Assembly: GCA_017993835.1 (NCBI GenBank)
Contig: JAGOLX010000050.1
Span: forward strand, 1 to 45,581
From: Phycisphaerae bacterium
Lineage (GTDB): Bacteria; Planctomycetota; Phycisphaerae; Sedimentisphaerales; Anaerobacaceae
Direction: 5' to 3'
Length of the DNA: 45,581 nucleotides
The translations under genes and the position numbers were made by a program. Of the stretch, positions 14,190-44,194 are shown in pieces; within the stretch, counting starts at the first letter, position 1, and each line of letters begins with the position of its first letter. The notes beneath the pieces were generated by a model, which worked only from the letters and a program-made list of their open reading frames with translations, made no database searches and had not been told where the DNA came from.

Positions 14190-15629
14190 CTATCTGCGCG
14201 CCAAGAGAGCGACGTAGCCGCCGTCATGGTCGAAGGGCCCGGTCGTCGGCAGCAGGAGCGATTCGCCCGCCAGGTTGAACTCGCCATGACCGGCCAGGAA
14301 CGCGCGGATCATGTCCTGGTTCTCCCGGCGCTCGATGCTGCACGTGCTGTAGCAGATCCGCCCGGAAGGCTTGATGAGAGTCGCCGCCCGTTCGAGCAGA
14401 CCCTGCTGGATCATCGCGATCTCCCGCACGGCCTCGGCCGTGACGCGAAATCGAGCTTCGACCCGACGGGCCAGCACGCCCGTGTTCGAGCAGGGGACAT
14501 CGAGCAGGATCGCATCGAAGGGCCCTGTCGCCCGTTGTTCCAGTTGCGCATGCGGGACGATCGTTACGCTCCTAAGGCCAACCCGGGCGAGATTCTCGCG
14601 CACCCGCTCCAGCCGTTCGGGGTCGATGTCCGTGGCGGTGACGCTCGCGGCGTCCCGGGACATCTCCGCGATCTGCACTGTCTTGGCGCCCGGCGCAGCG
14701 CAGAGGTCCAGAATCGACCAGCCAGGCTGCGGGCCCAGGATTCGCACCGCCTGCGAGGCGGAGAGGTCCTGGACGGTGAACAGGCCCTCGGCAAAACCGG
14801 GAAGCTGCGTCACGGCGTGAGGCCCGGTGATTCGGATCATGCCCGATCCCAGGATGGCGTCCTCTCGTTCGCAGTGACGCCGTGAGGCGTTATCAGGATA
14901 TGCCCTTACGGGCACACTACGAACGGGTTCGGCCTGCACGCCGGCGGCCTGGAATCTCGACAGGAGGTCATCGCCCGTCGTTCGCAGGGGATTGACGCGG
15001 AGGTACAGGCCGGGCCTGCGATTGCACGCCAGGCAGATGTCACGGGTTCGCTCGGGTCCGAACTCGTGGAGCCACTCGTCCACGAGCCACGCGGGCAGCG
15101 AGAAGCACAGGCTCAGCCAGGCGGCCGTCGAAGTCGTTGGATCGGGCAGGAAGTCCGTGTCGAACTCGCAGCCCGACTGAGGGGTTTGGGGGAGCGTCCG
15201 TCTGGCGTGGGCTCCCGCGAGGTCGACCTGGCGGTTGGCGATGTGCCGCACGATCTGGCGGAGGACCGCGTTGACGAATCCGCTCTGCTTTCTGCCGCCG
15301 GACGTGCCGACGCTGTTCACCGCTTCATCGACGATGGAATAGACGGGCGTCGCGGGATTGCAGACCAGCTCATAGGTTGCGATTCGCAGGATGCCCAGCA
15401 ACCCGGCGTCGATGCGGACGACCGGCCGGCCCGAAAACGTGGCGATCACCGCGTCGAGGGCGTTGCGGTTGCGGATCACGCCGTAAACAAGGTCGGTTGC
15501 CCGCTGTTTCTGGTCGGTCTGGTCGAGCAGGGGATCGAGCAATCGTCCGGCATAATCGCGTGTCGGGTCGAACCGGTGCAGGACCTGGGCTGCGATCACG
15601 CGCGCCGATTTGAGACTACCCGCGGTCAT
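14190..15629 (-). CDS. rsmB: 16S rRNA (cytosine-C5)-methyltransferase, RsmB type, with repeat-derived insertion
   Basis: A 479-residue enzyme that methylates 16S rRNA C967 with SAM. The N-terminal NusB-like RNA-binding domain (1-150: SARVIAAQVLHRF, QRATDLVYGVIRNRNALD) is followed by the Fmu/NOL1 catalytic domain: LPGFAEGLFTVQDLSAS, LDLCAAPGAKTVQIAE (SAM loop), VTATDIDPERLERV, LLDVPCSNTGVLAR and GRICYSTCSIERRENQ, the last two holding both catalytic cysteines. Between the two domains at about residues 236-254 is an extra stretch, RSVPVRAYPDNASRRHCERE, encoded by a dispersed repeat (14874-14924) found again at 44125-44194. The frame is intact and every catalytic motif follows, so the enzyme is probably functional. 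It is the last gene of lptB-def-fmt-rsmB, 40 bases after fmt. Confidence 0.95.
   Translation of the reverse strand: MTAGSLKSARVIAAQVLHRFDPTRDYAGRLLDPLLDQTDQKQRATDLVYGVIRNRNALDAVIATFSGRPVVRIDAGLLGILRIATYELVCNPATPVYSIVDEAVNSVGTSGGRKQSGFVNAVLRQIVRHIANRQVDLAGAHARRTLPQTPQSGCEFDTDFLPDPTTSTAAWLSLCFSLPAWLVDEWLHEFGPERTRDICLACNRRPGLYLRVNPLRTTGDDLLSRFQAAGVQAEPVRSVPVRAYPDNASRRHCEREDAILGSGMIRITGPHAVTQLPGFAEGLFTVQDLSASQAVRILGPQPGWSILDLCAAPGAKTVQIAEMSRDAASVTATDIDPERLERVRENLARVGLRSVTIVPHAQLEQRATGPFDAILLDVPCSNTGVLARRVEARFRVTAEAVREIAMIQQGLLERAATLIKPSGRICYSTCSIERRENQDMIRAFLAGHGEFNLAGESLLLPTTGPFDHDGGYVALLARR
14874..14924 (-). repeat. repeat family C inside rsmB
   Basis: Two small hairpins in tandem: GACGCC/GGCGTT and TGCCC/GGGCA, ending CACTACGAAC. 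The copy at 44125-44194 has the same two hairpins with a longer spacer between them. Half of the element is also found in mnmE at 22350-22375. Translated here in frame as part of rsmB. Confidence 0.85.
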
Positions 15630-21422: not shown

Positions 21423-21450
21423 TGTAGGGTGGGCTCTCAGCCCACGCGTT
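21423..21450 (+). repeat. repeat family G (TAGGGTGGGC/GCCCACGCG)
   Basis: Hairpin GTGGGC-TCTCA-GCCCAC. The copy at 40238-40268 reads GTGGGT-TCTCA-ACCCAC: both sides of one base pair changed together. It ends 17 bases before the mnmE start. Confidence 0.75.
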
Positions 21451-21466
21451 GCTTCGATTGTCGATC

Positions 21467-22978
21467 ATGTACGATCTCCGCGACACCATCGTGGCCGTCA
21501 GCTCCGCCGCCGGGGGCGTGCGGTCCATCGTTCGCATCACCGGGCCGCAGGTGCTGTCGGTCTGCGAGCGGATCTTCGAGCCGAGTTCGGGTCCCCAAAT
21601 CGTAAATCGCAAATCGCAAATCGAGAATCGCAGAGTCCTGCCCGGGACGGTCCGCATCGCGGATGACCTGAGCGCGGACGCCTCGCTCTACCTGTTCTTC
21701 TCGCCGCACTCGTATACCGGCGAGGACCTGGCCGAGATCCACGTCCACGTCGCCCCCTGTCTCGTCGAGACGCTGATGTCGTCGCTGCTGGCGCACGGTT
21801 GCCGGGCTGCGGGACCGGGCGAGTTCACCGCCCGCGCCTACCTCCATGGCAAGCTCGACCTTGCCCAGGCGGAGGCAGTCAACGAGGTCATCGCCAGCTC
21901 GAACCGTCTCCAACTGGAGGCGGCCGAGCGGCTCCTGGGCGGTCGATTGACCCAGGCGACCGAGGGAATCCGCACGGCCCTGCTGGACACGCTGAGCCTG
22001 ATCGAGGCGGGACTCGACTTCAGCAGCGAGGACATCGAGTTCATCGGCCGAGAACAGGCGGCGGCGCGACTGTCGGACATCCAGGCGAGCCTGGAGCGTC
22101 TGCTGGCCGGAAGCATCCGATGCGAGGAATTGCTCGATCTGCCCGCGGTCGGGATCGCCGGGGCGCCGAACGCGGGCAAGAGCAACCTGCTCAACGCTCT
22201 GCTCGGCTGGGAGCGGAGCATCGTCTCACCGCAGCCCGGGACGACGAGGGATGTCCTGACCGGCGTGCTGACGACTGTTCGTGGGGCATCCCGCAGCATG
22301 GGCATCTTGCCCGTGATTCGGAATCATGGGCGGGACGCTCATGCTACTGAAACGCCTCACGGCGTCACTACGAACGGCCTCTCCGGCGTGCCGTTCCAAT
22401 GCGTCCTCTTCGACTGTGCCGGCCTGATCCCGTCACCGGACAACGTGCTGGACGAGTTGGCCCAGCGAGCGGCCGTCGAGGCCCTCAATCGCTGCGCCGC
22501 GGTTGTGTTCTGCGTTGATTCCGCGAAGGGCCACTGGGCCGAGGACCTCGCGATTCGTGGGCTCATCCAGCCGAAGCATGCGATCCACGTGGCGACAAAA
22601 TCGGATCTGATCGTCGAAGCCCAACGGCCTCGCAGGTTGAACGAGCTTGCTGGCGCGTTTGGCGTCGAGTTCCTCCCCGTGTCCGCGAGTGCGGGGGCCG
22701 GTCTGGCGGATCTTCTGCTTGCCATCGAGGCAGGCGTGCACAGCACCCCCTGCGCGGCCGATGCGAACGCCGTGGCGCTGACCGCGCGTCACGGACAGGT
22801 TGTGACAGAGGCCCTCGACAACGTCCGCCAAGCTGTCGCAGAAGTGGAGTCGGGCCATGATGAGGTGGCTGCCATGATGATCCGGGCCGCCTGCCAGACG
22901 ATCTCCGGCATCGAGCAGGTGCATCTCGACGAGCAGGTGCTCGACCGGATCTTCTCACGATTCTGCGTCGGGAAATGA
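21467..22978 (+). CDS. mnmE: tRNA modification GTPase MnmE with repeat-derived insertions
   Basis: MnmE with MnmG modifies U34 of several tRNAs. The 503-residue protein is about 45-50 longer than usual. N-terminal folate-binding domain: MYDLRDTIVAVSSAAG, RSIVRITG, GPGEFTARAYLHGKLDLAQA. GTPase domain: G1 GAPNAGKSNLLNALL (about residue 232), G2 PGTTRDVL, G3 DCAGL (normally DTAGL), G4 TKSD (normally NKxD). The C-terminal FCVGK carries the essential Cys. Two foreign stretches are read in frame: QIVNRKSQIENRR at about residues 43-56 (repeat F) and, between G2 and G3 at residues 278-304, SMGILPVIRNHGRDAHAT plus ETPHGVTTNG (repeats D and C). All functional motifs flank the insertions intact. Start ATG at 21467. 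Directly downstream of yidC. Confidence 0.94.
   Translation: MYDLRDTIVAVSSAAGGVRSIVRITGPQVLSVCERIFEPSSGPQIVNRKSQIENRRVLPGTVRIADDLSADASLYLFFSPHSYTGEDLAEIHVHVAPCLVETLMSSLLAHGCRAAGPGEFTARAYLHGKLDLAQAEAVNEVIASSNRLQLEAAERLLGGRLTQATEGIRTALLDTLSLIEAGLDFSSEDIEFIGREQAAARLSDIQASLERLLAGSIRCEELLDLPAVGIAGAPNAGKSNLLNALLGWERSIVSPQPGTTRDVLTGVLTTVRGASRSMGILPVIRNHGRDAHATETPHGVTTNGLSGVPFQCVLFDCAGLIPSPDNVLDELAQRAAVEALNRCAAVVFCVDSAKGHWAEDLAIRGLIQPKHAIHVATKSDLIVEAQRPRRLNELAGAFGVEFLPVSASAGAGLADLLLAIEAGVHSTPCAADANAVALTARHGQVVTEALDNVRQAVAEVESGHDEVAAMMIRAACQTISGIEQVHLDEQVLDRIFSRFCVGK
21596..21632 (+). repeat. repeat family F inside mnmE
   Basis: AAATCGTAAATCGCAAATCG then CAAATCGAGAATCGC, read in frame as QIVNRKSQIENR. 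Homologous AAATC-type repeats lie between genes at 13937, 16668 and 21341 in this window. Confidence 0.8.
22296..22375 (+). repeat. repeat families D and C, adjacent, inside mnmE
   Basis: Family D (22296-22348): hairpin GGGCA-TCT-TGCCC then ATGGGC/GCTCAT. Its relative at 39235-39292 (opposite strand) shares about 30 of 33 bases across GGGCATCTTGCCCGTGAT and the following GAATC. Family C half (22350-22375): AACGCCTCACGGCGTC then ACTACGAAC, as in rsmB and at 44125-44194. Confidence 0.85.
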
Positions 22979-40808: not shown

Positions 40809-40862
40809 ATGTAGCCCAGCCGCCCCCGGCTGGGATCACCCCCGAGGGCAGGGGTGCCACAC
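40809..40862 (+). repeat. repeat family E, intergenic copy
   Basis: Two hairpins: CCCAGCCG/CGGCTGGG then CACCCCCG/(A)GGGGTG. Same family as 43514-43572 inside kdsB. The surrounding gap (40710-40924) also contains GTCC-TAAA-GGAC; no gene is seen there. Confidence 0.8.
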
Positions 40863-40924: not shown

Positions 40925-42703
40925 CTACGCCTCCGCGGAGGCGCACACCTTCTTCACCGCTTCCACACAGTTCGGCAGGTCGCCGTCCAGGTGGTGCCTC
41001 TTCATCGCGGCGGCGACCAATCCCACAAACATCGGCTGCGGGCGCAACGGCCGCGACGTCAGGCACGGATGCGCCTGCGTTCCCATGAAGAACGGATGCT
41101 TCGGCAGCTCCAGGATCTGCATGATCGGCTGATCCGGCGCCTTGCCCGAGAAGACCATGCCGTGCTTCTCCAGGGTCTCGATGTACCGAGGATCGACCTC
41201 ATAGCGGTGCCGGAACCGCATCCGCACGGCGTCCTTGCGGCCGAAGAGGTCCCACGCAATGGTCTTGGGCTCGATCTTGATGTCCCGGCCGCCCAGTCGC
41301 ATGTTGCCGCCGAGCCCTTCGATCTTCTTCTGCTCCGGCAGGATGTCGATCACCGGCTCTGGCGCGTTCGCGTCCATCTCCGTGCTGTTGGCGTTCTTGA
41401 TCCCGCACACGTTCCGGGCGAATTCGATCACCGCCATCTGGAACCCCAGGCACAGACCCAGGTACGGCAGGTTGTTCTCCCGGGCGTACTTCACGCAGGC
41501 GATCTTGCCTTCCGACCCGCGAGCGCCGAATCCGCCCGGCACGATGATGCCGTCCACGTCGGCCAGGTGCTTGGCAACGTTGGCGTCGGTGATCGAGGTC
41601 GTCTCGATCCATTTGATCTTGACGTCGCTGCCCAACGCGACGCCAGCGTGCTCCAGGGCGTTGATGATCGAGGCGTAACTGTCGCGGACGGAGGTGTACT
41701 TGCCGGTGATGCCGATCGTCGTCTCGTATTTGGCGGTCCCGATCCGGTCGGTGAAGTCGCACCATTTGGCCCAGGCCTTCCGCTCGTGGCGGAGGTTGAT
41801 GCGGTCCTCGATCTTGAGCAGGCGGAGGACCTCGAAGTCCAGCCCATGCTCGCGGAGCATGGCGGGAATCGTGTAGATGCTCGTCGAGTCGTGCAGGCTG
41901 ATGACCCGCTCCAGCGGCACGTTGCTGTAAACGCTGATCTTCTGACGGGCCTTCTCGTTGACCGGGTTGGTCGCCCGGCAGACGATGATGTCCGGCTGGA
42001 TCCCGAGCTGCATCACCTGCTTGATGCCGAGCTGGGCGGCCTTGGACTTCTGCTCGCCCAGAGCGGGCGGATCGATGATGTAGGTCAGTGCGACGAAGCA
42101 ACTGCTGCCCGGCCCTTCCTCGTAGGCCAGCTCGCGCATCGCTTCGATAAAGTAGGCGTTTTCCAGGTCGCCGACGGTGCCGCCGATTTCGACGAAGACG
42201 ACGTCCGCCTTGGTCTCGGCGGCGAGTTGCCGCAGGCGGAGTTTCACCTCGCCTGTTACGTGTGGGATCATCTGCACGTCCCGGCCGAGGTAGTCACCGT
42301 GGCGCTCCTTGCTGAGCACCGAACTGAAGATCTGCCCGCTGGTGGCGAAGTTGGCCCGGCTCAGGTCCTGGTCGAGGATCCGCTCGTACGTCCCCAGGTC
42401 CATATCGGTTTCCATGCCGTCGTCGAGGACGAAGACCTCGCCGTGACGGAAGGGGTTGAGCGTGCCAGAGTCGATGTTCAGATAGCCTTCGAGCTTGATC
42501 GGGGCGACCTTCAATCCCTTGTCCTGCAGGAGTTTGGCAAGGCACGAGGAGAAAATCCCCTTGCCCAGCCCGCTCATGACCGTGCCCATGACGAACACGT
42601 AGCGGGTCTTGCCCTTCTTGTAGTTCATCGGCATCGGAGCGAAAAACTCGCTTTCCGTCGATGTGTCGGTGATCTTCGTCAACATCTCTTTGCTATCTGT
42701 CAT
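40925..42703 (-). CDS. pyrG: CTP synthase
   Basis: Makes CTP from UTP, ATP and glutamine. About 592 residues from ATG 42703 (601 from ATG 42730, neither with an ideal ribosome binding site). An N-terminal extension of about 30 residues precedes the synthetase domain: RYVFVMGTVMSGLGKGIFSS (P-loop; the usual form is GGVVSSLGKG), KLEGYLNIDSGTLNPF (usual KLDPYINVDPGTMSP), HGEVFVLDDGMETDMDLG and EIGGTVGDLE. The glutaminase domain has PGGFGARGSEGKI, YLGLCLGFQMAVIEFAR (Cys nucleophile), and near the end the His-x-Glu-like RHRYEVD. All catalytic features are present, but the synthetase loops deviate from the common form. It is solitary, with kdsB upstream on the same strand across a repeat-filled gap. 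Confidence 0.95.
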   Translation of the reverse strand: MTDSKEMLTKITDTSTESEFFAPMPMNYKKGKTRYVFVMGTVMSGLGKGIFSSCLAKLLQDKGLKVAPIKLEGYLNIDSGTLNPFRHGEVFVLDDGMETDMDLGTYERILDQDLSRANFATSGQIFSSVLSKERHGDYLGRDVQMIPHVTGEVKLRLRQLAAETKADVVFVEIGGTVGDLENAYFIEAMRELAYEEGPGSSCFVALTYIIDPPALGEQKSKAAQLGIKQVMQLGIQPDIIVCRATNPVNEKARQKISVYSNVPLERVISLHDSTSIYTIPAMLREHGLDFEVLRLLKIEDRINLRHERKAWAKWCDFTDRIGTAKYETTIGITGKYTSVRDSYASIINALEHAGVALGSDVKIKWIETTSITDANVAKHLADVDGIIVPGGFGARGSEGKIACVKYARENNLPYLGLCLGFQMAVIEFARNVCGIKNANSTEMDANAPEPVIDILPEQKKIEGLGGNMRLGGRDIKIEPKTIAWDLFGRKDAVRMRFRHRYEVDPRYIETLEKHGMVFSGKAPDQPIMQILELPKHPFFMGTQAHPCLTSRPLRPQPMFVGLVAAAMKRHHLDGDLPNCVEAVKKVCASAEA

Positions 42704-43198
42704 CTGAGACCCAACCTCAATCTGTACCATGCTCTACAATTCGATCCTATATCTCAGCACGTTATTGACTTCCTCCGACTTGTCAATCAATGACTCCTTG
42801 GGGCTCTGCCCCAAACCCCGGCATTTTTCGCTTTGGGCCAATAGCATGAAAGGGGTGCATGATCGCAACTGTGGCCCGTATCGCCAGAGTCCGGGCGGTC
42901 TTCCTGTTCGGAGTTCCGCGTTTACGCGGGTCAAACAGTCCGGCCGGCCTTTGCATCCTTGGGTCACTTGGAAAGGAGCGGGCTGCGCCGGAAGACTCTC
43001 GGACCCGCCTGAAGGCGGAACTCCAAACGGACCTCGCCGCGATGCTCCGGCCTAGAGGGCCGCTGTGCGTCTGGGTCTTGCTCTCATACCATGCTGCTGG
43101 CGCAAAGCGAAAAATGCCAGGGGTCCGGGGACAGCGTCCCCGGTCATGGGTTGCGGTTGTGCCCACGGAATCCACCCTTGTCTGCGCCTTCCCTGCAT
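42704..43198. other. repeat-dominated gap between kdsB and pyrG
   Basis: About 495 bases with no credible gene. It holds the composite palindrome 42796-43143 and an operator-like dyad ATTGAC/GTCAAT (42764-42787) before pyrG. No sigma70-type promoter of good quality was found for pyrG. Confidence 0.55.
42796..43143. repeat. nested composite palindrome of repeat families A and B
   Basis: Outer arms are family A: 42796-42848 (GCCAATAGCATG type) and, inverted, 43091-43143 (GCCAGCAGCATG type). Inner arms are family B: 42904-42940 and, inverted, 42994-43030, sharing GGAGTTCCGC and GCGGGTC. In family B the hairpin is CCGCG-TTTA-CGCGG on the left and CCGCC-TTCA-GGCGG on the right, a compensatory change. 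Confidence 0.75.
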
Positions 43199-44008
43199 TC
43201 AATGGCTTCTTCTCCACAGTTCCGCGAACGCGGCGTATTGCTCGGGCGTGTCGATCCCTTCGCAGGTGTGCTCGACCTTGCCGACGAGGATCGTGTATCC
43301 GTTCTCGATGGCTCGGAGCTGCTCGAGCTTTTCGAGCTTCTCCAGGGGCGTCTGCGGCAGCGAGGTAATAGTCAGCAGGAAGTCCCTGCGATAGGCATAA
43401 GCTCCGATATGCCGCAGGTAGTCGCCCACGTCGCCCACGCCTGCGCGATCCCGGTCGTAGGGAATCACCGATCGGGAGAAGTAGATGGCCCTTGCGGTTT
43501 GGTTAGTGGTGAGATGTGGCCCAGCCGCCCTCGGCTGGGTATCAGTCACCCCCGAGGGCGGGGGTGCCACATGAGTAATGACTTTCACGGCATTCGGGTC
43601 AGCTACTTGATCCGCCGACGTAAATGGAGCGGCCAGGGTCGCCATAGGACAGTCGGGGTGGTCGATCAGCAGGCGGGCGAGGTAGTCGATGTGGTCGGGG
43701 TCGATTCGCGGCTCGTCGCCCTGAACGTTGACCACAATATCTGCGTCGCTGTGGCCGACCGCCTCGGCGATTCTATCCGTCCCGCTGTTATGTTTGGGGG
43801 AGGTCAGCACGCACTCGGCTCCGAACTCCTGCGCCGCCTTGACGATCCTGTCGTCGTCGGCCGCGATCACGACCCGCTCGGGCAGCTTCGCCTTGCGGGC
43901 CTGCTCCCACGTATGCTGGATGAGGTACTTGCCGGTGTCTTTGGCGAGAACTTTCGCGGGGAAGCGGGTGGACGCATAGCGGGCCGGAATACAAACAACA
44001 ATCTTCAC
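43199..44008 (-). CDS. kdsB: 3-deoxy-manno-octulosonate cytidylyltransferase with repeat-derived insertion
   Basis: Activates KDO as CMP-KDO for lipid A core assembly. 269 residues, about 20 more than usual. Motifs: KIVVCIPARYASTRFPAKVL, VVIAADDDRI, VLTSPKHNSGTDRIAEAV, IVVNVQGDEPRIDP, MATLAAPF, FSRSVIPYDRD, HIGAYAYRRDFL and LEQLRAIENGYTI. Between DPNAVKV and AIYFSR is THVAPPPSGVTDTQPRAAG followed by PHL and TTNQTAR, absent from the family and encoded by repeat E (43514-43572). The frame remains open and all catalytic blocks are present. The start is GTG at 44008, immediately before the family N-terminus; no strong ribosome binding site. Together with lptB it implies an LPS-bearing outer membrane. 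Confidence 0.94.
   Translation of the reverse strand: MKIVVCIPARYASTRFPAKVLAKDTGKYLIQHTWEQARKAKLPERVVIAADDDRIVKAAQEFGAECVLTSPKHNSGTDRIAEAVGHSDADIVVNVQGDEPRIDPDHIDYLARLLIDHPDCPMATLAAPFTSADQVADPNAVKVITHVAPPPSGVTDTQPRAAGPHLTTNQTARAIYFSRSVIPYDRDRAGVGDVGDYLRHIGAYAYRRDFLLTITSLPQTPLEKLEKLEQLRAIENGYTILVGKVEHTCEGIDTPEQYAAFAELWRRSH
43514..43572 (-). repeat. repeat family E inside kdsB
   Basis: CCCAGCCG-CCCT-CGGCTGGG and CACCCCCG-AGGG-CGGGGGTG hairpins in tandem, flanked by ATGTGG and CCACAT. The intergenic copy lies at 40809-40862. Translated in frame at about residues 146-166 of KdsB. Confidence 0.85.
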
Positions 44009-44124
44009 GAATCTACTCGGAAAGGGTCTTCCGTTGCGGCGACATGCCCCAACTTTCAACAGCCGCTATCATACGGTTCCGCACCCCCGATGTCAACGGA
44101 CTCGCGGCCGATTCTGCGAATGTG

Positions 44125-44194
44125 TTTGTAGTGACGCCGTAAGGCGTTATCTTCCCCGCGCATGGAGATATGCCCTTACGGGCACACTACGAAC
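44125..44194 (+). repeat. repeat family C, intergenic copy
   Basis: GTAGTGACGCCGTAAGGCGT, a 16-base spacer, then GATATGCCCTTACGGGCACA and CTACGAAC. Ends 8 bases before the stop codon of the Hsp70-like gene and follows the kdsB 5' region. Same family as in rsmB and mnmE. Confidence 0.85.

Follow-up and report, generated by a model that had tools for sequence, protein, structure and literature searches.

The window, by which we mean the whole stretch of 45,581 nucleotides that was analysed, comes from an uncultured planctomycete and contains kdsB, the gene for CMP-Kdo synthetase, next to pyrG. A palindromic repeat lies in frame within kdsB, and a second copy of it lies between open reading frames. 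The features of this part of the window are as follows.

43199..44008, minus strand: kdsB, CMP-Kdo synthetase, stop codon included, probable GTG start (Pfam, NCBIfam, fold, dN/dS)
43514..43572, no strand assigned: REP dimer (BIME), a 59-nt inverted repeat in frame in kdsB (arms, folding, unit pairs)
43516..43539, plus strand: REP unit A, GTRG head and hairpin, GTGGCCCAGCCGCCCTCGGCTGGG
43547..43570, minus strand: REP unit B, on the strand opposite to unit A, GTGGCACCCCCGCCCTCGGGGGTG
43490..43513, minus strand: 8-codon tail LTTNQTAR between the REP and AIYFSR (sequence)
40811..40860, no strand assigned: second copy of the kdsB REP dimer, between ORFs (repeat search)
40925..42730, minus strand: pyrG (CTP synthase), neighbour of kdsB and insert-free control (Pfam, NCBIfam)
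44128..44190, no strand assigned: second REP family, one dimer (GTAGTG...CGTAAGG...) immediately upstream of kdsB (repeat search)

The longest open reading frame for kdsB spans 43199-44059 on the minus strand, and translation probably starts at the GTG at 44008. The identity of the product is clear from matches to CTP_transf_3 in Pfam (E 1.8e-49) and to TIGR00466 (kdsB) in NCBIfam, the latter above the cut-off. As the initial annotation had proposed, a palindromic repeat is read through in frame within KdsB. The arms of the 59-nt inverted repeat (43514-43534 and 43552-43572) are 86% complementary and 17 nt apart, and the strand folds at -24.5 kcal/mol, compared with a mean of -12.7 kcal/mol for shuffled sequences (z -5.8; 0 of 200 shuffles equal). 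The reading frame has no stop across the region (DPNAVKVITHVAPPPSGVTDTQPRAAGPHLTTNQTARAIYFSR), and the repeat itself reads as VAPPPSGVTDTQPRAAGPH. Compared with the uninserted sister G005, the turn is longer by 23 residues, which are made up of REP and tail. The tail, LTTNQTAR, lies outside the REP; judging by its sequence, part of it is perhaps also extra, possibly the remnant of an older insert. An intergenic copy of the same repeat (repeat E), previously placed at 40809-40862, was recovered at 40811-40860, flanked by the ends of a 208-aa ORF (40709) and of pyrG (40925).

A GTAG-Type REP Dimer and a REP-Associated Transposase

The repeat in kdsB has 68 BLAST matches in the genome. A whole-genome pattern search for unit B returned 82 copies (45 + 37), compared with 0 for the reversed control, and 106 copies of unit A lie within about 2 kb either side of these; together, the units form 67 clusters. 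Each half consists of a GTAG or GTGG head followed by a hairpin, and the halves are inverted and face each other. In 56 A-B pairs the units are no more than 20 nt apart, and in 29 of these the spacing is 7 nt, the same as in kdsB. The tetranucleotide ahead of the hairpin and the high copy number are those of GTAG-type REPs, and inverted pairs at short spacing are those of BIMEs and REPINs. The kdsB insert is a REP dimer (BIME/REPIN) of GTAG type, which we call REP1.

The same genome encodes, on contig C37, a Y1 transposase with repeat arrays on both sides, so that a RAYT gene is flanked by the same REPs, as in a REP-RAYT system (REPtron). The protein matches NF047646 (REP-associated tyrosine transposase) with 90.5 bits at a cut-off of 80, and TnpArep (4er8) is its best match among solved structures. 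It contains HVH and Y-x3-NPVRKG, which agree with the HuH motif and the tyrosine-adjoining motif NP(L/V)(R/K)xG of PMC2817692. The open frame (L085:2318-2974, G000:C37) has REP sequence at its start and at its end, which makes REPs part of the RAYT's own ORF. REP1 was matched in six of the eight other genomes of the genus, although a close RAYT (95%) is found in only one, G005, which makes the present mobility of the element uncertain. AT ahead of GTRG and A behind the dimer are common in the flanks of REP1, and no target-site consensus could be distinguished from the ends of the element itself.

GT(A/G)G heads, hairpins, inverted pairs and a REP-flanked transposase are likewise described for REP/BIME/REPIN systems with RAYTs in the corresponding sections of PMC2817692, PMC3116915 and PMC8266576; there, however, the elements are normally extragenic, whereas here one copy is coding. 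Closer precedents are described in the main-text parts of Di Nocera et al. (2013; PMC3733652), where GTAG REPs lie within ORFs in several species, the largest number in O. terrae (Verrucomicrobia). According to these parts, more than half of the intragenic elements are dimers or groups that encode 20-30 residues, and such elements may be neutral where they fall into flexible linkers or loops. They share with the kdsB insert the GTAG/GTGG-tagged hairpins, the mostly dimeric state and the in-frame position in unrelated proteins; PVC members are among their hosts, and most O. terrae GTAG-20 elements have GTGG. As in-frame intragenic GTAG REPs are already described there, the kind of event seen in kdsB is known. 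The host gene kdsB and REP1 are not met in the main-text parts of that paper, its supplementary gene list aside, and in the literature searched, with most subscription journals outside its scope, we found no report of KdsB with such repeats.

Rickettsia palindromic elements (RPE; Ogata, Claverie, as cited in the relevant passage of PMC3733652) also occur as palindromes in frame in housekeeping proteins, and the kdsB repeat resembles them in lying in frame inside a protein gene. The likeness is one of behaviour only, since the RPE of R. conorii has the tag CGTC according to that passage, whereas the kdsB repeat has GTRG and a RAYT; we therefore do not file it as an RPE, membership being ruled out by the tag.

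Integrity of KdsB

A protein-level search of the whole genome found no second full-length kdsB. The three further matches to KdsB cover 34-47 query residues around the insert and fall on copies of the repeat in other ORFs. The dN/dS values of the window's kdsB against four sisters are 0.15-0.20, and those of four comparisons between sisters are 0.12-0.17; kdsB is under purifying selection. The enzyme is presumably active. An AlphaFold2 model (53 sequences) has a mean pLDDT of 90.6, with a drop to means of 54 and 50 for residues 151-160 and 161-170, between the strands 143-148 and 173-179. Its top fold matches are solved KdsBs, first 1gqc (E 1.0e-27). KdsB is thus predicted to keep its fold despite the insert, with a disordered loop joining two strands. 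The initial annotation had named modelling as a check on solvent exposure; the position of the loop between strands came out of the model directly, while a place at the surface is suggested by the predicted disorder.

The KdsB Turn in Related Bacteria

Of the 89 genomes of the family, 80 had matches, and the alignment comprises 78 KdsBs from 77 of them; G017, G107 and G108, with fragments or weak matches only, were left out. Within the genus, five of eight relatives have the uninserted turn, and the other three have another insert. Across the family, the turn is extended by at least 4 residues in 25 of the 76 KdsBs that cover it (those of G087 and G021 do not). It is longer in none of 23 KdsBs from 24 genomes of other families of the order. 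Inserts of at least 4 residues also occur elsewhere in the protein, at about residues 87-89 and 115-119 (8 sequences each). Repeat-like inserts near these two places were seen in G093, G078, G110, G088, G099 and others, and G078 has inserts at all three places.

For the neighbouring PyrG, none of 72 rows from the 89 family genomes is longer than the query; these rows span the 537 residues completely or almost so, their lengths were compared by hand, and partial rows were omitted. Since PyrG is the more conserved of the two, the difference shows that the occurrence of inserts varies with the protein; it does not set KdsB apart from all other proteins.

REP1 is found at the turn only in the window's genome. 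In G007 and G061 the turn is filled by a different dimer (GTAGGGGC...), of which G001 has a single-unit remnant and G003 a more degraded one. The G007 insert has 18 matches in G007, 20 in G061, 11 in G001 and 16 in G003; the window's genome has 4 and G063 has 1. A hairpin, GATTCC-GCTTTCGC-GGAATGAC, fills the turn in G103, G104 and G035, in whose genomes it is dispersed (7, 15 and 18 matches). Judged by eye, most other inserts are arrays in which a short unit, about 7 nt long, is repeated. Within this bacterial family, the turn has therefore taken up short-repeat arrays and no fewer than three dispersed families of palindromes. Only 7 of the 25 inserts reach z <= -2.5 on folding (RNA parameters; 100 shuffles for every insert; the pattern used missed five KdsBs without insert), which means that palindromes do not account for everything that enters the turn. 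On a quick tree built without the insert columns, presence and absence of an insert change at least 20 times, gains and losses taken together; this tree comes from a quick search in which 11 of the 76 inner branches are starred and, of the three outgroup rows, one falls on the wrong side.

REP1 in Other Genes of the Genome

A crude codon model with a flank threshold of 0.05, whose training set was the open frames at these same loci, places 11 of the 67 REP1 clusters within genes. We also ran Pfam on 19 ORFs that span REP1 clusters, leaving out four further picked candidates, and this adds at least one more (C91:64608). In four cases, the cluster lies inside the matched domain stretch; in three more, the domain match is split into two stretches and the cluster lies within or next to the domain.

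C91:62236: REP1 in a beta-lactamase domain (Pfam)
C91:64608: REP1 in a PGA_cap domain, same 1674-residue ORF as the beta-lactamase (Pfam)
C91:69327: REP1 in an Exo_endo_phos domain (Pfam)
C104:179828: REP1 in a protein kinase domain (Pfam)
C39: REP1 in or beside a glutamine cyclotransferase domain, matched in two stretches
C91:149515: REP1 in or beside a penicillin amidase domain, matched in two stretches
C65: REP1 in or beside a DNA polymerase III delta' domain, matched in two stretches

The remaining clusters of the scanned ORFs lie between or outside matched domains, and two of the 19 ORFs have no Pfam match. Reading frames and directions of REP1 differ between genes, which argues against a selected peptide; we disfavour the idea that the peptide was selected for a function for this reason. 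The 1674-residue frame (L102:1967-6988, G000:C91) combines beta-lactamase, transglutaminase and PGA_cap domains with four in-frame REP1 clusters.

Origin of the KdsB Insert

Together, our data suggest, with a probability of roughly 0.88, that a non-autonomous GTAG REP dimer, spread by a RAYT, sits in frame in a tolerant turn of KdsB as a selfish insertion without a selected peptide. The dimer would most likely have spread as single-stranded DNA through a RAYT such as that on C37, and one copy would have landed in frame in the beta-hairpin turn. The host appears to tolerate it, because the turn can hold about 23 extra, presumably disordered residues with the fold undisturbed, and the insert may well be neutral; in related species, the same turn is filled by other repeats. 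What was observed in favour of this account is the identity and copy number of the repeat, its in-frame position, the empty site in sisters and the linkage to a RAYT, and further the open, constrained kdsB and the predicted disorder of the loop. The use of the turn in 25 of 76 KdsBs speaks against it, as this number fits chance landing plus tolerance only if most other sites are lethal.

One could suppose instead that the turn is a preferred target, with older short-repeat arrays or local DNA serving as a landing pad in which REP families nest. The three dispersed palindrome families and the arrays at a single turn, the short-repeat arrays beside or around the insert in G001, G015, G035 and G103, and the 20 or more changes on the tree all fit this idea. 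However, residues 87-89 and 115-119 take inserts too, as would be expected of tolerant loops, the majority of turn inserts do not reach the folding threshold, and no consensus can be separated from the ends of the element, so that we consider a preferred target unlikely. A tolerant loop that has been sampled by many selfish repeats is the simplest reading. It is correspondingly doubtful that the turn is a recurrent landing site in this planctomycete family, where the three or more unrelated palindrome families and the various short-repeat arrays, in places layered side by side, would have entered because older repeats there attract new REPs and not through tolerance of the loop alone.

It is very unlikely that the longer loop was kept for a function in contacts, regulation or stability: longer turns do recur in one family, but the inserts, from 6 to 36 residues long, have nothing in common between genomes in sequence or length, most KdsBs have none, and the loop is predicted to be disordered. 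Least probable of all is that kdsB is a pseudogene or the insert an assembly error, since, although the genome is a draft of 115 contigs and repeats can mis-assemble, the reading frame is open, dN/dS is in line with that of the sisters, kdsB adjoins pyrG as on sister contigs, and the same turn is filled by other inserts in other assemblies; the alternative that the initial annotation had raised against itself, an inactive gene and a second intact copy, was rejected, as no other full-length kdsB was found in the genome and the gene is under purifying selection.

What is unusual, then, is that different repeat families have used the same turn of KdsB again and again within a single bacterial family, for which tolerance is the simplest explanation. 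In the main-text parts of PMC3733652, different REPs are reported at about the same recB site in two Xanthomonas species; compared with that case, several families at one turn across a bacterial family are a larger recurrence at the same site. Selfish palindromes thus reshape a Kdo-pathway enzyme in a lineage where such repeats abound. The turn offers a natural one-site series, from empty through short-repeat array and single REP to REP dimer, with which to study how mobile DNA is accommodated by proteins and whether REPs favour particular targets. In annotation, segments like THVAPPPSGV should not be taken for conserved motifs.

Other Palindromes in the Window

The insert in kdsB had initially been counted as the third of its kind in a housekeeping gene within 45 kb. 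This count is well supported for kdsB and rsmB and plausible for mnmE as the third gene, with the qualification that, of these genes, only kdsB carries repeat E.

14190-15629, minus strand: rsmB, host of an in-frame palindrome
14871-14920: dimer of the second GTAG REP family, in frame in rsmB, GTAGTGTGCCCGTAAGGGCA

The second GTAG REP family has 95 matches in the genome, compared with 1 for the control. Its dimer in rsmB translates as PVRAYPDNASRRHCE and lies between the ferredoxin-like (179-240) and methyltransferase (297-454) domains, at a position where E. coli RsmB (1sqf) is shorter. The ORF at 21449-22978 (plus strand), which we take to be MnmE from its sequence alone, reads another palindromic repeat, at about 22298-22371, as SMGILPVIRNHGRDAHATETPHGVTT, so that mnmE probably carries an in-frame palindrome as well. 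Near the start of the same ORF, IVNRKSQIENRR looks like a short-repeat insert. Finally, a 32-nt repeat (CCGGCATTTTTCGCTTT...) is present near both ends of the window, at 1832-1863 and 42818-42849, the two copies being 88% identical.
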